Below are positions 16,852 through 35,101 of a DNA stretch of 38,328 nucleotides, one piece after another. The DNA is from a virus: IMG/VR virus record IMGVR_UViG_3300028550_002804, positions 1 to 38,328 of that record; one strand, written 5' to 3'. The translations under genes were made by a program, and so were the position numbers. Numbering within the stretch: the stretch's first letter is position 1; the number at the start of each line of letters is the position of its first letter. The notes under the pieces are model-generated. The model saw only the letters and a program-made list of their open reading frames with translations. It did not search any database and was not told the origin of the DNA.

Positions 16852-17393
16852 AATATATATTTTACATACTTTGTTTTTCCGTTGCCATTACATCTAATGC
16901 ATTTGGTGGGGGTATGGTACATAAATGGAAATCACCTTCTTTTAGTGGAATAGGAGCAAGTGCCCATTTCTTGACTATTGAGAACCAAGAGTTTACTCGT
17001 AAGGCTGAAATTAGAGGAAAGAAAGATTCTGCTGCAGCTAAAAAAATATCAGCAGCAAAGAATACGAATTACGCAAAATTTTTAGATAATTTGGAGTCAA
17101 GAATATATGCAGAGTTTTCAAAACAGTTAACGGATAATTTGTTTGGCGAATCATGTGGAACAACTTATACAACTGGACCAGTTGATGGAGTAGTAATAAC
17201 ATCACAAAATACTTTGAATCCAGAAGCAGGAAACACTGATGGTGTTGGTAGTAACTGTACTGGAACATATACATTTAATGATACAACAGTTACATACACA
17301 AAGGATGTTGCAAACGATATAGTGATATTAGATATAGTAGGGCCAGATGGTAGTCAAGTCATTACATTGCCTCTTAACGATTTTCAGTTTTAG
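16848..17393 (+). CDS. csgF: CsgF-like curli assembly factor
   Basis: A signal peptide (MKYIFYILCFSVAITSNAFG) precedes a mature N-terminus GGGMVHKWKSPSFSGIG. This lines up with the CsgF start that inserts into the CsgG channel (E. coli TMTFQFRNPNFGG). Further matches are NLESRIYAEFSKQLTDNLFGE with the CsgF amphipathic helix, and a C-terminal beta part ending DGSQVITLPLNDFQF. In curli, CsgF forms a second constriction in the pore and presents the nucleator at the cell surface. At 181 residues it is longer than E. coli CsgF (138), with an inserted Thr/Gly-rich loop bearing two Cys. It overlaps csgG by 47 bases. Confidence 0.85.
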   Translation: MKYIFYILCFSVAITSNAFGGGMVHKWKSPSFSGIGASAHFLTIENQEFTRKAEIRGKKDSAAAKKISAAKNTNYAKFLDNLESRIYAEFSKQLTDNLFGESCGTTYTTGPVDGVVITSQNTLNPEAGNTDGVGSNCTGTYTFNDTTVTYTKDVANDIVILDIVGPDGSQVITLPLNDFQF

Positions 17394-18156
17394 TATACTG
17401 TTTGGATGTCAAACGGTTCCGTCTGATCCGCCTACATCAACAACTGAACTATTATATGAAAAACTAGAAGAGATTTCATCACCTGTACAGAAGGTTCCGA
17501 TAGCAGTCTATTCATTTACAGACATGACGGGACAAAGAAAACCAGGTGATGGTGTGGCATTGATAAGTATGGCAGTCACTCAAGGCGCTCATGTATGGCT
17601 TTTACATTCATTGAAACGTGCTGGTGGTGGTGAATGGTTCATGGTTATAGAACGTATTGGGTTAGATAATCTGTTGAAAGAAAGACAGATTATACGTCAA
17701 ACGAGAAAGACACACGGTGATAAAGACGATTTAAAACCTTTACTGTTTGCTGGAGTATTGATCGAAGGTGGTATTGTAGGATATGATACTAACACAATGA
17801 CAGGAGGAATTGGAGCTCGACTACTAGGAATTGGCGCACAAGAAGAATACAGAGAAGATAGCGTATCTGTTGGTATAAGATTAGTATCGGTTAGTACTGG
17901 TGAAATTTTATTAGCAGTTAGTAGTGAGAAGACCATATTAAGTACGAGACTATCTGCTACAGTGTTTAGATTCTTAGACTTAGGAACTAAACTACTAGAA
18001 GTGGAGGCTGGATATACAGAGAATGAATCTGTAACATATGCAGTAAGAAAAGCTATTGATAAAGTTATTGTTGATATGATCCACGAAGGAACTAAAAAAG
18101 GATTGTGGGAATTTAAGAAAGTAGAGGATGATCAAAAGAAGGAGGTAAAAAAATGA
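17347..18156 (+). CDS. csgG: CsgG-like curli secretion channel lipoprotein
   Basis: The lipobox LFGC puts the lipidated Cys at 21, and the 269-residue length matches E. coli CsgG (277). Conserved blocks are PIAVYSFTDMTGQRKP, IERIGLDNLLKERQIIR, VLIEGGIVGYDTNTMTGGIGARLLGIG, VSTGEILLAVSSEKTILS, VFRFLDLG and EAGYTENESVTYAVRKAI, in family order. CsgG forms a nine-subunit outer-membrane pore that exports curlin subunits. By eye the constriction loop (Y51, N55, F56 in E. coli) is replaced by GDGVALI, lacking the aromatic gate residues. It lies between the CsgF-like gene and a curlin-repeat gene. Confidence 0.92.
   Translation: MVVKSLHCLLTIFSFSILFGCQTVPSDPPTSTTELLYEKLEEISSPVQKVPIAVYSFTDMTGQRKPGDGVALISMAVTQGAHVWLLHSLKRAGGGEWFMVIERIGLDNLLKERQIIRQTRKTHGDKDDLKPLLFAGVLIEGGIVGYDTNTMTGGIGARLLGIGAQEEYREDSVSVGIRLVSVSTGEILLAVSSEKTILSTRLSATVFRFLDLGTKLLEVEAGYTENESVTYAVRKAIDKVIVDMIHEGTKKGLWEFKKVEDDQKKEVKK
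18139..18146 (+). promoter_or_regulatory. Consensus ribosome-binding site of curlin-repeat gene
   Basis: AAGGAGGT, a full match to the 16S anti-Shine-Dalgarno sequence, 6 bases before ATG 18153. Most neighbours have weak sites, so this predicts unusually strong translation, as expected for a fibre subunit. Confidence 0.7.
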
Positions 18157-18857
18157 AGAAAGTAATACTTGCATTTATAATGTTTTTTGCTATGACAAGT
18201 GCAAGTTTTGCAGACAGTAAAGTTTATATCACTCAGTCTGGTGCTAACTTAGACCTAGACATAACTATGGATGGAAACGGAAATCTTATTGGTGCAACAG
18301 GTGACAGAACATTACTTACTGGTGCTAACTTAGATGTTGACATTGATTTAATTGGTGCTTCTAATGTGATAACTGGTGATTTTATTGGTGCTGGTGAAGC
18401 AGGCGCAGACGATCTAAAAATAAGTCAAACAGGTAGTACTAATACTACTGCAATAAATGTTGGCGCATCGGCAGCAACGGATGATGTAAGAATCATAGAA
18501 ACTAGAGTAGGAAGTAGCGGTGAAACTTCATACACAATTGGTAATGCAGCTACAGTTCAAGATGTTAGTGTTACTGTGGATGTTGTCGGCGATGATATTG
18601 ATATAACACTTCTTGAAAATTCATCCAGTACTGGATCGGATAAAACAACCGATATTGATATTGCAACGGACAGTGATGATGTTGATATAATTATTACTCA
18701 TACTGGTGCAGGCGCACACAAAACAAAACTGTTATGTACGGGTTCTTGTGCCGGTAGTGATTTTACTATGTCACAAACTGGAGCAAATAGTACAGATGTT
18801 GATTTAACAGTAACTAATGCAACTAGCTCAGATGTTGATATCATTATTACGGACTAA
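18153..18857 (+). CDS. Curlin-repeat secreted protein (candidate fibre subunit or nucleator)
   Basis: A signal peptide (MKKVILAFIMFFAMTSASFA) is followed by ~215 residues of Gln-x-Gly-x-x-Asn-type strands: ITQSGANLDLDI, ISQTGSTNTTAINV and MSQTGANSTDVDLTV match the curlin repeat. Between them the repeats are degenerate and Asp-rich (DVDIDL, DDVDIIIT). A Cys pair (CTGSC) could form a disulphide. It is acidic, as secreted amyloid subunits often are. Placement directly after csgG with a consensus ribosome site suggests this is the main exported substrate. It overlaps the FecR gene by 41 bases. Confidence 0.75.
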   Translation: MKKVILAFIMFFAMTSASFADSKVYITQSGANLDLDITMDGNGNLIGATGDRTLLTGANLDVDIDLIGASNVITGDFIGAGEAGADDLKISQTGSTNTTAINVGASAATDDVRIIETRVGSSGETSYTIGNAATVQDVSVTVDVVGDDIDITLLENSSSTGSDKTTDIDIATDSDDVDIIITHTGAGAHKTKLLCTGSCAGSDFTMSQTGANSTDVDLTVTNATSSDVDIIITD

Positions 18858-19968
18858 CTTGAGATGGACACTAATAGCAATTTTGTTAGTATTATTGCCC
18901 CAGCTATCATATGCTGCAGCAATTGGTAATGTAGTACTTCAAGAAGGTGTTGCGTCTGTTGAGAGAAAAGGAACGGAATCTAACCTTAACCTAGATTCTG
19001 ACATTATGTTTATGGATAATGTCAAAACTGGTAAAGGGGAAATTGGTATCACATTTATAGATGATACCAATGTGGCCGTGAGTTCTCAAAGCTCTCTCAT
19101 CATAGATGATTTTGTTTATGACCCTAATAGTGCTGAAGGTTCTAAGTTAGTACTTAGAATAGCTCTTGGTACAGTACGGTATGCTAGTGGTAATATAGCA
19201 AAGCTAAACAAACAAAATGTTGACATTCGTACCCCGACCGCTAGAATAGGTGTTCGTGGTACTGCTTTTAGTATGACGGTGGATGAGATAGGCCAATCAC
19301 TTATTATATTGTTACCGAATGCTGATGGGACTGTAGGAGAGATATCAGTGGAGTCTGATATAGGTCAAGTGATATTAACGAGAGCGTTTCAAGCAACGTC
19401 GGTTAGATCAAGGGAGGCTTCTCCCACAAAACCCAAAATACTTGATCTAACAGAAAGTATGATTAATAATATGTTAATCATCAAACCACCTAAAGAGAAA
19501 GTAGATTTAGCATCTGCTACGATTGAAGAGAAAAAGAAAAAGAATCTAGGAAATTTCTTAGATGAAGAGAAAGAGATTGACAAAAATTGTTTAGAGGAAG
19601 AATGTGAAGGTCAAGAAGAAGAAGGTGGATTTACCAGCTTAGATATTAATCCTTTGGATGTTAATTTATTATTAAATGTACTAACGGAATTAAACAAAAA
19701 ATACAAAAAACCAAATACGATATTAACAAGAACAATATCTAATACAGATGGCAGAGTTGCTGGATATAATCCAGAGTCTCTAGTAACAACTCTTATAGAA
19801 GGTGACTCAGTTCAATTGATTCGAGAATTTGATAGCAGTATGATAGACATCACCTTAGATAGAGTGGATGGACATAAGATTAATATAGATCAAAAAGGTA
19901 GCGTTGCGCCGGAGATAAGGACAGATGAAGCGGGTTATACTTCTACTATTGATATTCATATTCAGTAG
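18817..19968 (+). CDS. FecR-domain secreted protein with curlin-like tail
   Basis: A signal or anchor segment (WTLIAILLVLLPQLSYA) precedes a FecR-type beta domain: VVLQEGVASVERKG, DNVKTGKGEIGITFIDDTNVAVSSQSSLIIDDF and DIRTPTARIGVRGTAF are its hallmark blocks. An acidic/lysine linker (~230-270) and a C-terminal INIDQKGSVAPEIRT reminiscent of a curlin repeat follow. FecR proteins sense or scaffold at the envelope and are known neighbours of CHASE2 cyclases in bacteria. ATG 18832 is an alternative start. It overlaps both neighbours. Confidence 0.8.
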   Translation: MQLAQMLISLLRTNLRWTLIAILLVLLPQLSYAAAIGNVVLQEGVASVERKGTESNLNLDSDIMFMDNVKTGKGEIGITFIDDTNVAVSSQSSLIIDDFVYDPNSAEGSKLVLRIALGTVRYASGNIAKLNKQNVDIRTPTARIGVRGTAFSMTVDEIGQSLIILLPNADGTVGEISVESDIGQVILTRAFQATSVRSREASPTKPKILDLTESMINNMLIIKPPKEKVDLASATIEEKKKKNLGNFLDEEKEIDKNCLEEECEGQEEEGGFTSLDINPLDVNLLLNVLTELNKKYKKPNTILTRTISNTDGRVAGYNPESLVTTLIEGDSVQLIREFDSSMIDITLDRVDGHKINIDQKGSVAPEIRTDEAGYTSTIDIHIQ

Positions 19969-21376
19969 TACTACTGTATATGCTGAAGATGTTTTTATTC
20001 TTCATCAGGGGTATGGCAACACTCATCAAAAATGGAAGAATAGACTAGAGGATGCTGGTCATACAGTTACTATGGGAAATTCTCTTCCTAGTGTTACGAC
20101 TAGTTATGAGCAAATATTTGATATAAGATATTCGTATAACTTATCCTCAGCAGAAGAAACAGCGTATAAAGCTCTGCTAGCAAGAGGAGGAACTTTGTAT
20201 CTTCAAGGTGAAAATCCTCACTCCACTCTTAATCCTCGTAACCAAAATATAACAGAATTTATTAAAGATGAATTGGGTGGAGGAAATGTAGTTTATAATA
20301 GTTCTACATATTCTGGTAATTCGATTACGACATTTAATACATCTCAATCTTATATTGCTAATCATAGTGGTAGTCTTACTTGGTCTGCCGGAGGAATTTT
20401 AACTTCGGTTGGTGATGGTACATGGTTGGCTAAAGATAGTAGCGGTAATATTGTTGTAGCAGTATGGTATGGTGAGAGTTTAAACAATGCGTATAGTGAT
20501 GGTATAGTTTTTGTATTCACAGATATTAACTATGCATCCCATAGTTCATACTATACAAATAACAACAAAGCATTTATGAATGCATTGCGTACTGCTATAG
20601 CAAGTACATTCAACCAACCGACTAGTGCTGTAACCATATCATCAGCACAAACTACAAAAAGAACTGCTGCAATAAATGCTAGTATAGAAAATGGTTGTAA
20701 TGTTTGTATAGTACAATCAGGTGACAACCCCACAATTAACATACGACAAGACGGTGATGATAATTTTATTGTAGATAAAGATTGGTCAGGGCCTGCTACT
20801 TTAACAGGAGACAATCTCGTATTAACTATAAAACAAGGCAATGTAACTACAACTGGCAGTAGTGATGAGAATGGAATAGGATTATATATAAATGGTAATA
20901 ACACAAATTTAACAATAAGTCAAGGGGATCATGCAAACGACCAAGGGGAGCATAAAGCAGTAATAGATATTAATGGAGCTTCTAATGTTATGAACCTTAC
21001 TCAATATGATGGTGGAACATTATCAAAACACTTTTTTGAGGCAGACGTAGATGGTGGTAGTAATAATTTGACTGTCACACAAAAAGACAATGGCCAGAAA
21101 ACAATGTTCTTAGATGTGAACGGAAATAGTAATGAAGGAACTTTTATTCAAGAAGACACTGGAACTCACTATCTTGACGTTACACTAGATGCAGACCATG
21201 AGGTAAATATTACTCAACGTGGCAGTGGTAATCATGGAGCAAGAGTTAACTTAGATGGTCACAGTACTGATTTTGATTTAATTCAACAAGGTAGCAGTGC
21301 TCAATATTATAATTTAGACAATACTTGTAGTAATGCTTTAGGTTGTACGATAAATACAACACAGGGAACACAATGA
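19925..21376 (+). CDS. Large curlin-repeat protein with N-terminal globular domain
   Basis: A signal peptide (MKRVILLLLIFIFSSTTVYA) is followed by a globular domain (~20-230) with FDIRYSYNLSSAEETAYKALLARGG and LYLQGENPH, which looks like a class I amidotransferase/ThuA-like Rossmann fold. From ~255 to the end there are eight or more Q-centred repeats (IVQSGDNPTI, IRQDGDDN, TISQGDHAN, NLTQYDGG, TVTQKDNG, FIQEDTG, NITQRGSGN, LIQQGSSA) alternating with N-G-N strands. I infer a fibre cap, nucleator or adhesin of the curli-like system. Cys pairs occur near 262 and at the C-terminus. It overlaps FecR by 44 bases. Confidence 0.75.
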   Translation: MKRVILLLLIFIFSSTTVYAEDVFILHQGYGNTHQKWKNRLEDAGHTVTMGNSLPSVTTSYEQIFDIRYSYNLSSAEETAYKALLARGGTLYLQGENPHSTLNPRNQNITEFIKDELGGGNVVYNSSTYSGNSITTFNTSQSYIANHSGSLTWSAGGILTSVGDGTWLAKDSSGNIVVAVWYGESLNNAYSDGIVFVFTDINYASHSSYYTNNNKAFMNALRTAIASTFNQPTSAVTISSAQTTKRTAAINASIENGCNVCIVQSGDNPTINIRQDGDDNFIVDKDWSGPATLTGDNLVLTIKQGNVTTTGSSDENGIGLYINGNNTNLTISQGDHANDQGEHKAVIDINGASNVMNLTQYDGGTLSKHFFEADVDGGSNNLTVTQKDNGQKTMFLDVNGNSNEGTFIQEDTGTHYLDVTLDADHEVNITQRGSGNHGARVNLDGHSTDFDLIQQGSSAQYYNLDNTCSNALGCTINTTQGTQ

Positions 21377-23430
21377 AAAAATGGATTATATCATTAATAG
21401 TAATTCTGGTTTTATGCGGAGTTCGCTTCACTGATCCTTGGTTTTTAGATATGGTGCGTATGAAAGCACTAGATCAGCATCAACGCAATCAAACCCAACA
21501 AAGTCTATCCAATCTTGTTACAATAGAAATCAATAACGGAACTCTCAAGAAAAAAGGTCAATGGCCTTGGGATAGAAATACTTTATCAAATGAGATTATA
21601 AAACTATATCAAGCGGGAGCTGCGTTAGTCGTACTTCCTATTCTATTTGCAGATGATGATAGGTTTGGTAAGGACAGAGCATTAGCAAGAGTTCTAAAGA
21701 AGACTCCCACTATTATAGGACAAATACCTACCAATGAGAAAGATAACAGCGGTGTTATAAGAGGAGTTTCAACAATAGGTAAACCGTGGAAAGGTTGGGT
21801 ATATCAATATCCAGGCGCCATTGGTCCAATACCCCTACTTGCAAGAAATGCTCATGCTGTTGGTATGATGATAATTGCACCAGAGAAGGATGGTGTGGTT
21901 AGGCGTATGCCTCTGGTGATTGCAGTGGGTGATAAATTATATCCATCTATGAGTATGGAAATTCTACGCATGGCCGCAGGAGACATATCATATCAGATGA
22001 AGACAGGTATTGCAGGGGTAGAGAAATTACGCATACCTAAATTTAAAATGATTGATACGGATGCTCATGGGAACATATGGCTTGACTTCAAATGGAAAAC
22101 GCCAACCTATGCATTGCACGAAAAATTACCAGACCTCAAAGGAAAAATTGTGATAGTGTCTATGACCGCCTCTGGTCTTGATAATCCCGTATCTACTCCT
22201 GTTGGTGTAATTCATTCGCATGATTTGATTGGTTCATCTCTTGCGACGATGATGACAGGAAGAAACATCACAAGACCATACTGGACAAATGTTGCTGAGC
22301 TGGGAGCATCTTTTGGTTTCGCACTTGCACTAATGGTTATCGTATTATTACTTCCTTGGTATTTTAGTGTTGCACTAATGCCTGCATCATTGTATGGATT
22401 GTTCTATGGCAGTTCATATCTCTTTACTAAACATGATTTGTTGGTAGATTGGAGCTATCCTGTACTCACAGTATTCATTGCTTGGGCTCTTGCAACATTC
22501 CTAAGATTTATGGAAGAACATAAATTACGAATGGAAATTAAGAAACAGTTTGAGCATTACCTTGCACCAGCAATGGTTAAAAAATTACAGAAGAATCCAT
22601 CTCTACTCAAATTGGGTGGTGAGACAAGAGAACTAACATTATTGTTTTGTGACATAAGAGGGTTCACACCAATCAGCGAACAATTCAAAACAGACCCACA
22701 AGGATTAACAAAACTAATCAATAGATTTTTAACACCAATGACAGATATTATTATGAAAAATGGTGGAACTATAGATAAATACATGGGTGACTGTATTATG
22801 GCATTTTGGAACGCACCTCTTGATGTTGAAGAACAAAGACAGTTGGCTCTAAGATCATCTCATGAAATGTTATATCATTTAAAAGTTTTGAATGCTGAAT
22901 TAGCTAAGGAAAAAGCTTTACCTATTAATGTTGGAATAGGTTTGAATACAGGAGAGGTAGTTGTGGGTAATATGGGAAGTGATCAGAGATTTGATTATAG
23001 TTGTCTTGGTGATGCAGTTAATCTTGCTGCAAGACTTGAAGGACAAAGTAAAGAATACGGCATGAAGATAATTCTTGGTGACGAAACATCTAAAGGAATG
23101 GAAGAAGAATTTGCAATTATTGAATTAGACAAGATTGCTGTCAAAGGTAAGACTGAAGGTGTAACCATTTTTACCTCTTTAGGTAGATACGAACAACTTC
23201 ATCAAGAAATGAATTACTATAGTACATGTATACAACAACATGATAAATTCTTAGTTTTGTACAGACAACAACATTGGGACTTGGCATTAAGATGGTTGAA
23301 TGATTTGAGAGATGAATTTAATGGTGTTATGGCAGATTATTATGCTATGATGGAAAAACGTATAGAGGTATTACGAGAAGAAGACCTCCCTCCTGATTGG
23401 GATGGCGTCTATAGAGCGACAACTAAATGA
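21373..23430 (+). CDS. CHASE2-domain class III adenylate cyclase
   Basis: ATG 21373 overlaps the preceding TGA and gives 685 residues; an in-frame ATG 30 bases earlier lies within the curlin gene. After an N-terminal membrane helix comes a periplasmic CHASE2 sensor (~25-300, for example GQWPWDRNTLSNEIIKLYQAGAALVVLPILF), then about three membrane helices and a cytoplasmic cyclase. Catalytic residues are intact: metal Asp D427 (LLFCDIRGF) and D473 (YMGDCIMAF), and transition-state N550 and R554 (GDAVNLAAR). It should make cAMP from ATP; guanylate specificity cannot be excluded. In bacteria CHASE2 cyclases often neighbour FecR genes. Confidence 0.9.
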   Translation: MKKWIISLIVILVLCGVRFTDPWFLDMVRMKALDQHQRNQTQQSLSNLVTIEINNGTLKKKGQWPWDRNTLSNEIIKLYQAGAALVVLPILFADDDRFGKDRALARVLKKTPTIIGQIPTNEKDNSGVIRGVSTIGKPWKGWVYQYPGAIGPIPLLARNAHAVGMMIIAPEKDGVVRRMPLVIAVGDKLYPSMSMEILRMAAGDISYQMKTGIAGVEKLRIPKFKMIDTDAHGNIWLDFKWKTPTYALHEKLPDLKGKIVIVSMTASGLDNPVSTPVGVIHSHDLIGSSLATMMTGRNITRPYWTNVAELGASFGFALALMVIVLLLPWYFSVALMPASLYGLFYGSSYLFTKHDLLVDWSYPVLTVFIAWALATFLRFMEEHKLRMEIKKQFEHYLAPAMVKKLQKNPSLLKLGGETRELTLLFCDIRGFTPISEQFKTDPQGLTKLINRFLTPMTDIIMKNGGTIDKYMGDCIMAFWNAPLDVEEQRQLALRSSHEMLYHLKVLNAELAKEKALPINVGIGLNTGEVVVGNMGSDQRFDYSCLGDAVNLAARLEGQSKEYGMKIILGDETSKGMEEEFAIIELDKIAVKGKTEGVTIFTSLGRYEQLHQEMNYYSTCIQQHDKFLVLYRQQHWDLALRWLNDLRDEFNGVMADYYAMMEKRIEVLREEDLPPDWDGVYRATTK

Positions 23431-23936: not shown

Positions 23937-24355
<419 letters not shown>

Positions 24356-33078: not shown

Positions 33079-33096
33079 TTATTTTTTAAAAAGGTA

Positions 33097-33125
33097 TTGA
33101 CAAAATGCATATGATATGGTATAAA
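33097..33125 (+). promoter_or_regulatory. Sigma70-type promoter for permuted tmRNA
   Basis: TTGACA (33097-33102), 17 bases, TATAAA (33120-33125). Transcription would start around 33132, at the 5' edge of the tmRNA acceptor piece. The -10 overlaps a TATAAATA string, so late transcription is also possible. Confidence 0.78.
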
Positions 33126-33129
33126 TATA

Positions 33130-33195
33130 GTACAGTTTGATGATACGGACTGAAAGTTGTACAGGACTTGGGGGCAGTACCCAACGCCTCCACCA
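33130..33195 (+). ncRNA. ssrA: Acceptor piece of a permuted two-piece tmRNA
   Basis: The 3' acceptor strand CGCCTCC (33185-33191) followed by A and CCA (33193-33195) pairs with GGGGGCG at 33373-33379. The T-arm is TTGGG-GGCAGTA-CCCAA (33168-33184); the GGCAGT-type loop, in place of TTCGAAT, is a trait I associate with alphaproteobacterial permuted tmRNA. TTGTACA (33157-33163) can pair with TGTATAG (33399-33405) to form helix 2 with G-T pairs. The acceptor lies upstream of the coding piece, as in circularly permuted ssrA genes. The 5' end is approximate. Confidence 0.85.
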
Positions 33196-33208
33196 AAAGG
33201 AGATTGGT

Positions 33209-33286
33209 ATGATTGTATTAGTATTTAAATACCAAGGGGAGGGTCAAGATGAAGACCCAGACCCTGTTCGCAAAGGAAGCCGTTAA
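33209..33286 (+). CDS. Small ORF in tmRNA spacer (25 aa)
   Basis: ATG 33209 follows AAGGAGA with 5-6 bases spacing, immediately after the tmRNA CCA end. The product is MIVLVFKYQGEGQDEDPDPV plus RKGSR. It overlaps the 40-residue membrane ORF in another frame and may be its leader peptide. The good ribosome site is the main support. Confidence 0.4.
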   Translation: MIVLVFKYQGEGQDEDPDPVRKGSR

Positions 33287-33371
33287 GTGGATGTTTAAGG
33301 CTTATGTAGTTTGGAGTATTTGTGCAGATATATTTCTTCTTGGTGGAATTGCGTACCTAATCTTTTTTTGA
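33249..33371 (+). CDS. Small membrane protein in tmRNA spacer (40 aa)
   Basis: ATG 33249 follows GGGGAGGGTC. The product starts MKTQTLFAKEAVKWMFKAY and has a C-terminal membrane helix (ICADIFLLGGIAYLIFF). Its TGA ends 1 base before the tmRNA coding piece. It occupies the spacer that is normally discarded from permuted tmRNA precursors. No family recognised. Confidence 0.5.
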   Translation: MKTQTLFAKEAVKWMFKAYVVWSICADIFLLGGIAYLIFF

Positions 33372-33372
33372 T

Positions 33373-33550
33373 GGGGGCGAAATAGGATCGACTGGCAGTG
33401 TATAGGAAAGTGGAGAATTGTGGATTGACCGCCTTATAGGTCAAATTCGTAAATGCAAACGATAATATTGCATCTCAAGATTACGCTCTAGCAGCGTAGT
33501 TGGATAGGGTTTCGGTGGGTTTCCTAGTAACAGAATAACCCACCACTTTA
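33373..33550 (+). ncRNA. ssrA: Coding piece of permuted tmRNA (tag ANDNIASQDYALAA)
   Basis: It begins GGGGGCGAAATAGGATCGAC, the conserved tmRNA 5' segment (acceptor strand plus D-like loop). The resume codon GCA at 33455 opens the tag frame 33455-33499: ANDNIASQDYALAA then TAG. The AND start and ALAA end are standard tmRNA tag features that direct tagged proteins to ClpXP-type proteases. A hairpin GGTGGGTT/AACCCACC (33514-33521, 33537-33544) follows. The RNA rescues stalled ribosomes with SmpB. The 3' end is approximate. Confidence 0.88.
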
Positions 33551-33563
33551 TTGAAAAAAGGAG

Positions 33564-33592
33564 TTGACAAGTAGATATTATTATGTTATACT
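33564..33592 (+). promoter_or_regulatory. Sigma70-type promoter
   Basis: TTGACA (33564-33569), 17 bases, TATACT (33587-33592): near-consensus. It would drive the HTH gene at 33648 and perhaps gp33 and gp59 downstream. Confidence 0.78.
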
Positions 33593-33609
33593 CTATAAAC
33601 AATGTCACT

Positions 33610-33627
33610 GATGATATTGTTATCATC
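33610..33627 (+). promoter_or_regulatory. Palindrome downstream of promoter, candidate operator
   Basis: GATGATA-TTGT-TATCATC, a perfect 7-bp inverted repeat lying about 11 to 28 bases after the predicted transcription start and 20 bases before an HTH-protein start. It could be an autoregulatory operator or an mRNA hairpin near the ribosome site. Confidence 0.45.
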
Positions 33628-33647
33628 TTGAAAGGATGAATTATACT

Positions 33648-33908
33648 ATGGTTACTACTACTACTCAGACCGCTAAGGTCGCTAATGCACTAAAGAATGG
33701 TGCAGAACTTACCGCAAAACAGATTTCAGCACGTTATGGTGTTAAGAATGTTCGTGCGGTGATCAGTAAACTACGTTTAGAAGGTTATTCTATCTATCTG
33801 AATAAGCGTGTATCGTCTTTTGATGGTGAAACCTACATGAAGTATCGTTTGGGTACACCACGCCGTGCTGTTGTTGCAGCTGGTTATGCCGCTCTACGTT
33901 CTGCGTAA
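33648..33908 (+). CDS. Small helix-turn-helix DNA-binding protein
   Basis: The start at ATG 33648 (MVTTTTQTAKVANALKNG) fits this phage family; ATG 33636 in frame adds MNYT and has AAAGG too close. ELTAKQISARYGVKNVRAVISKLRLEGYSIYLNKR is a winged helix-turn-helix. The C-terminus (YRLGTPRRAVVAAGYAALRSA) is conserved in marine phages. It is likely an early transcription regulator or nucleoid protein. Strong promoter and palindrome lie upstream. Confidence 0.75.
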   Translation: MVTTTTQTAKVANALKNGAELTAKQISARYGVKNVRAVISKLRLEGYSIYLNKRVSSFDGETYMKYRLGTPRRAVVAAGYAALRSA

Positions 33909-35024: not shown

Positions 35025-35101
35025 GCCGGAGTAGCTCAGTTGGTAGTAGCAGTTGCCTTGTAAGCATCAGGTCAGGAGTTCGAATCTTCTCTCCGGCACC
35101 A
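35025..35101 (+). tRNA. tRNA-Thr (anticodon TGT), somewhat degenerate
   Basis: Acceptor GCCGGAG/CTCCGGC pairs perfectly, followed by A and encoded CCA. The anticodon loop is CTTGTAA (TGT), reading ACA. Oddities: the D-stem is reduced to GCT/AGC with an enlarged loop, the anticodon stem GTTGC/GCATC has a T-T mismatch, and the T-stem AGGAG/CTTCT has one G-T. It may be functional with lower stability or be decaying. Confidence 0.85.

Follow-up and report, generated by a model that had tools for sequence, protein, structure and literature searches.

The window, by which we mean the whole stretch of DNA analysed here, is the 38,328-base virus record IMGVR_UViG_3300028550_002804, from a marine phage. 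It carries a permuted tmRNA gene of the alphaproteobacterial type with two overlapping small reading frames, ORF1 and ORF2, between its two pieces. ARAGORN called a permuted tmRNA at 33103-33590 (+) with the tag ANDNIASQDYALAA*. The Rfam model RF01849 (alpha_tmRNA; gathering score 50 bits) matched 33093-33544 over its full length, positions 1-355, at 106.6 bits (E=2.6e-28), and RF04321 (tmRNA_permuted) matched at 104 bits (E=2.1e-19). The match is not due to chance. The original prediction that the phage has a permuted alpha-type tmRNA gene in two pieces is thus borne out by ARAGORN and by both models, and the covariance-model search that it proposed as a check found both pieces in permuted order. 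The acceptor pairing GGGGGCG/CGCCTCC, the GGCAGT-type T-loop, the CCA end at 33195 and the TTGACA-17-TATAAA promoter directly 5' of the acceptor piece were likewise present as claimed. A promoter scan did not list the last of these because its rule demands that the second hexamer end in T. The features of the locus are as follows.

33097..33125, plus strand: promoter-like TTGACA (33097-33102), 17 nt, TATAAA (33120-33125), adjoining the acceptor piece upstream (sequence)
33133..33195, plus strand: acceptor piece, 5' end approximate (RF01849, RF04321, covariation)
33194..33211, plus strand: predicted 5' arm of the helix extending the acceptor stem into the spacer; includes the ORF1 Shine-Dalgarno (fold, end-matching)
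33196..33372, plus strand: intervening sequence (spacer), 177 nt, holding ORF1 and ORF2 (bounds from acceptor-stem pairing and Rfam)
33209..33286, plus strand: ORF1, 25 aa, MIVLVFKYQGEGQDEDPDPVRKGSR, overlapping ORF2 (frame offset, Shine-Dalgarno)
33249..33371, plus strand: ORF2, 40 aa, MKTQTLFAKEAVKWMFKAYVVWSICADIFLLGGIAYLIFF (54 distinct spacers, pN/pS 0.19, stop position, hydropathy)
33352..33370, plus strand: predicted 3' arm of the helix extending the acceptor stem; coincides with the last ORF2 codons (fold, end-matching)
33373..33544, plus strand: coding piece, starting at G 33373, 3' end approximate (RF01849, ARAGORN)
33455..33499, plus strand: tag reading frame ANDNIASQDYALAA* (ARAGORN, sequence)

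The acceptor piece consists of a 5' hairpin, one strand of the helix that joins the pieces, a T-arm whose loop GGCAGTA resembles the GGCGGUA of the alpha model, and CGCCTCC-ACCA. The coding piece supplies the 5' acceptor strand GGGGGCG, the tag frame, which ends in a proteolysis-type tail, and a 3' pseudoknot region. Together they form an acceptor stem of seven pairs with G3.U70 and an encoded CCA. We removed the spacers from 70 related phage tmRNAs and aligned the rest; G3.U70 was kept in all 70. The acceptor and T-stem helices provide no independent evidence because the sequences were chosen by their pairing, but the inter-piece helix and the 5' hairpin, which were not used in the selection, do. 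The inter-piece helix covaries, with TA in 39, AT in 30 and CG in one of the 70 sequences at columns 31-84 and six pair types at columns 25-89; RNAcofold did not recover it from the window alone, and the alignment of 70 did. The spacer is absent from mature tmRNA in this family, and by analogy we infer that it is removed here and that two RNA pieces form.

A two-piece, alpha-type tmRNA (ssrA) has been published for the marine Methylophilales phage Melnitz, a myophage of OM43, and permuted tmRNAs for 17 of 47 related contigs (PMC9004378). The Melnitz gene (locus L001) resembles that of the window in its type, in an equal Rfam score and in its place, with the PhoH region upstream and ThyX downstream. 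The two differ in that the Melnitz spacer carries another Shine-Dalgarno-led frame, and in that a glutamine riboswitch aptamer (L001 3402-3450, 52.8 bits) lies directly behind the Melnitz tmRNA whereas the window has none at the gathering threshold. The available portion of the Melnitz report makes no mention of spacer ORFs (PMC9004378). The closest homologues of the CsgG protein of the window are in phages HTVC008M (52.6%) and Melnitz (44.7%), so the window belongs to this phage group; this fixes the group and not the host. The tmRNA type is no safe guide to the host either, although it had been put forward as a strong host marker: Melnitz has an alpha-type tmRNA and infects the OM43 lineage, which lies outside the Alphaproteobacteria (PMC9004378), and a beta-type tmRNA in another contig, L257, carries the same cargo as the alpha-type ones. 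The further suggestion that the phage reprograms ribosome rescue or proteolysis finds no support in the analysis. A permuted tmRNA in a phage is already known, and the new point, which the original prediction did not include, is the presence of selected small protein genes between its halves.

ORF2 is a conserved gene. Its product is probably a single-pass membrane protein with one transmembrane helix, the best 19-residue hydropathy average being 2.07, as in membrane helices. Homologues occur at the equivalent place in 54 distinct spacers of related loci, which were drawn from metagenomes and are partly redundant. Among 19 distinct members of 38 aa (171 pairs), pN/pS was 0.19, a value that, like the others given here, is a simple average over related sequences rather than a tree-based estimate and that indicates purifying selection on the frame; variation by codon position was 0.165/0.054/0.256. 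The family had no match among 50,697 phage records and nothing above the cut-off in PHROGs or Pfam. Its one match in bacterial and archaeal genomes was on L269, a contig that looks phage-like and belongs to a MAG labelled Rickettsiales; misbinning is possible. A single base separates the ORF2 TGA from the coding piece, and exactly this spacing was found in 100 of the 115 detections, which include redundant loci. We first took the position to be selected for ORF2, but the element TGAT precedes the coding piece in 122/163 distinct phage spacers, as against 3/62 bacterial ones, and pairs with ACCA save for one A.C mismatch. A structural cause is therefore equally likely, and the ORF2 stop may reuse a structural element.

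The ORF1 Shine-Dalgarno, AAAGGAG, directly follows the CCA and is nearly invariant among relatives; the frame begins at about spacer position +13. This Shine-Dalgarno and the frame offset between ORF1 and ORF2 are kept in 49/54 spacers, even though indels shift the distance between the two. In 30 aligned spacers no stop interrupts the ORF1 frame before the overlap (0/30); of the two alternative frames, one is interrupted in 30/30 and the other in 17/30. The codon-position analysis found that the first ORF1 codons vary in their amino acids without clear constraint, while the later ones overlap ORF2. Because the amino acids at its start vary in this way, we read ORF1 as a probable leader or coupling ORF. 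In mok/hok a short leader frame overlaps the start of a small membrane-protein frame; the overlap layout of ORF1 and ORF2 is alike, a likeness that we treat as a lead only, and here the pair lies inside a tmRNA gene.

The precursor is predicted to fold more stably than expected (z = -4.44), with the spacer ends lengthening the acceptor stem (33194-33211 with 33352-33370). In other phages, spacer ends paired with their own partner at -17.4 kcal/mol, compared with -8.8 (sd 0.37) when partners were swapped; in the ORF2 family the difference was small (-15.0 against -14.35, sd 0.27) because the spacer ends hardly vary there. Bacterial spacer ends follow the same trend (-13.5 with their own partner, -9.0 swapped), and the extended stem is therefore a general feature in whose loop the phage ORFs lie. 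In the family of the window, the ORF1 Shine-Dalgarno is predicted to pair with the last ORF2 codons, an arrangement that would hinder translation and that counts against a role for the spacer in delivering protein genes.

Homologues of ORF2 also exist outside tmRNA genes. In L079 and L160 the homologue lies directly upstream of the tmRNA, an ORF1-like frame could be read by eye ahead of it in both, and the L079 spacer is filled by another sequence. In L269 the distance from the homologue to a tmRNA is about 1 kb, and the spacer of that tmRNA holds a different ORF, shared with the spacer of L023. In L224 and L265 an extra ORF is stacked ahead of ORF2, and L265 also repeats CCAAAAGGAGATT. In the L257 contig the spacer that holds ORF1 and ORF2 belongs to a beta-type tmRNA (RF01850, 91.7 bits). 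Over 158 nt this spacer shares 83.5% identity with alpha-type spacers; the acceptor and coding pieces of L257 match no other compared locus, the neighbouring genes differ, and similarity switches at the CCA and at G1. L257 is a single metagenomic contig, and an exact-pattern search found no second case like it. Read by eye, a tag frame near GCAACCGCAAATAC in its tmRNA (L257 6121-6300) would encode about 28 aa, unusually many for a tag; ARAGORN gave the phage tmRNAs of L082 and L096 a 29-aa tag, ANDNALSNVTFVDFSAPVTAVNEDFALAA.

Other phages carry other cargo. A family of 62-aa proteins, unrelated to ORF2, was detected 14 times inside a spacer and 17 times upstream of a tmRNA, and Melnitz has a homologue (67%) upstream of its tmRNA. 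Its pN/pS was 0.277 in nested copies (13) and 0.279 elsewhere (22). Two further nested families, with pN/pS of 0.36 and 0.23 from four sequences each, end at a TAG inside the coding piece (GGGGGCGAAATAG). We drew an independent viral sample with a tmRNA pattern and obtained 103 distinct spacers, 24 of which contained a Shine-Dalgarno-led ORF filling at least 60% of the spacer. Outside the ORF2 family such an ORF was present in 19/49 long spacers, compared with a mean of 3.8 and a maximum of 8 in 40 shuffles; a qualifying ORF was lacking from about half of these long spacers and from most spacers below 90 nt.

The permuted ssrA genes of Alphaproteobacteria (RF01849) resemble the phage gene in the order of their pieces, the G3.U70 acceptor stem, the type of T-loop, a tag ending in ALAA and spacer ends that extend the acceptor stem. 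They differ in having short spacers, with a median of 31.5 nt where phages have 117, and in none of the 62 distinct examples examined, a set for which the longest matches were deliberately taken, did a Shine-Dalgarno-led ORF fill at least 60% of the spacer. The alphaproteobacterial tmRNAs L301, L302 and L304 have long spacers (333, 232 and 165 nt) with no large ORF of this kind.

Our findings demonstrate the order of genes at the locus and its structure, the constraint on the cargo ORFs and their presence both inside and outside tmRNA genes. We consider it likely, on the strength of these comparisons, that the locus is an alpha-type permuted tmRNA of a phage whose spacer has a second role, as a slot in which small protein genes can be exchanged. 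A single transcript from the promoter beside the acceptor piece would comprise the acceptor piece, the cargo and the coding piece, and the folding and end-matching results would place the cargo in the apical part of a long hairpin made by the extended acceptor stem. As in known permuted tmRNAs, tRNA-type processing at the CCA and at G1 of the coding piece would remove the cargo RNA, and the cargo could be translated from the precursor or from the excised RNA. In the window the cargo would be an overlapping pair, in which the short ORF1 would be a leader, probably for translational coupling, and ORF2 probably a single-pass membrane protein. Different phages would hold different cargo, and the genes appear to change places between the spacer and the tmRNA flank and, in one contig, to have passed into another tmRNA lineage; the conserved acceptor-stem sequences flanking the spacer could provide the short homology for recombination. 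The likely gain to the phage would be the expression of accessory small proteins off the tmRNA promoter with no separate transcription unit. The spacer is then most likely a tolerated, exchangeable site for small accessory proteins, whose peptides would have a function in the phage.

The reading that we find hardest to credit is that the reading frames of the spacer arose by chance or are decaying, in a loop rich in AT, and that the locus is merely another phage permuted tmRNA. Many phage spacers, and all of the bacterial spacers examined, do indeed lack a large Shine-Dalgarno-led ORF, but pN/pS values of 0.19-0.28 in the two larger families, the shuffle controls, the conservation of start, Shine-Dalgarno and stop, and the existence of homologues as separate genes outside the tmRNA all point the other way, and for ORF2 and the 62-aa family they largely refute it. 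It is very improbable that the cassettes are selfish mobile elements targeting tmRNA, in the manner of the endonuclease genes in tmRNA group I introns. The replacement between CCA and G1 in L257 and the stacked cassettes in L224 and L265 are what such elements might leave behind, but the cargos are many and unrelated, the ORFs tested (27-77 aa) matched no nuclease family above the cut-off in Pfam or PHROGs, and recombination in the conserved acceptor-stem sequences beside the spacer can explain the exchange. No group I intron was matched in the window.

Unlikely, though less so, is a role for the ORFs in cis, in which their translation would regulate the folding or maturation of the tmRNA by leader-peptide logic and the peptides would have little effect of their own. 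In its favour, the stop is so close to G1, one base away, that a terminating ribosome would sit over the RNase P site; the ORF1 Shine-Dalgarno is predicted to lie in the extended acceptor helix opposite the last ORF2 codons; and the ORF1 frame is kept while its amino acids vary. Against it, the amino-acid sequences of ORF2 and of the 62-aa protein are conserved outside the tmRNA too, at equal constraint, which argues that the peptides themselves matter, and with TGAT common before phage coding pieces (122/163) the stop could owe its place to a structural element. The positions of the Shine-Dalgarno and the stop are the sole ground for a possible regulatory link of cargo translation to the maturation of the tmRNA. 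In one version of this link, cargo translation and maturation would be competing states of one RNA, the helix hiding the Shine-Dalgarno against the last cargo codons and the terminating ribosome covering the RNase P site. We think this rather doubtful; if true, the phage would make either a small protein or a rescue RNA from each transcript, according to the availability of ribosomes in infection.

An exchangeable slot for small protein genes, the reading that we prefer, has partial precedents. Reports exist of intervening sequences of tmRNA genes that contain a tRNA-Ala or a repetitive element, which are isolated cases in permuted genes, and of group I introns of tmRNA genes that harbour homing endonuclease genes (PMC11915505). 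These are alike in that an extra gene or element lies within a part of the tmRNA gene that is removed; they differ from the phage permuted tmRNAs described here, which carry many small ORFs without similarity to nucleases. A search of the open-access literature gave no report of protein genes in the intervening sequences of permuted tmRNAs, sequences that have so far been treated as waste. The spacer genes represent a class that annotation skips, since the tmRNA feature covers them. If they are translated, one phage locus would yield a structured rescue RNA and small proteins from a single transcript, small accessory phage genes would have a defined site of exchange, and there would be a possible reason for the commonness of permuted tmRNAs in marine phages; a link between translation and tmRNA maturation would also be open to testing.

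Several other features of the window deserve mention. Behind the tmRNA, in the region 33564-33908, a strong promoter-like TTGACA-17-TATACT lies upstream of a small winged-helix protein (HTH_39) whose relatives are mostly located behind permuted tmRNAs. ARAGORN found genes for tRNA-Arg(TCT), tRNA-Pro(TGG) and tRNA-Thr(TGT) at 24058-24217 and 35025-35101. A curli-type cluster within 17347-23430 comprises CsgG (17347-18156), curlin-like repeat proteins and a FecR-domain protein (18817-19968), and it is followed by a protein with CHASE2 and adenylate/guanylate cyclase domains (21343-23430; Pfam E 1.4e-36 and 1.8e-20), an arrangement unusual in a phage.
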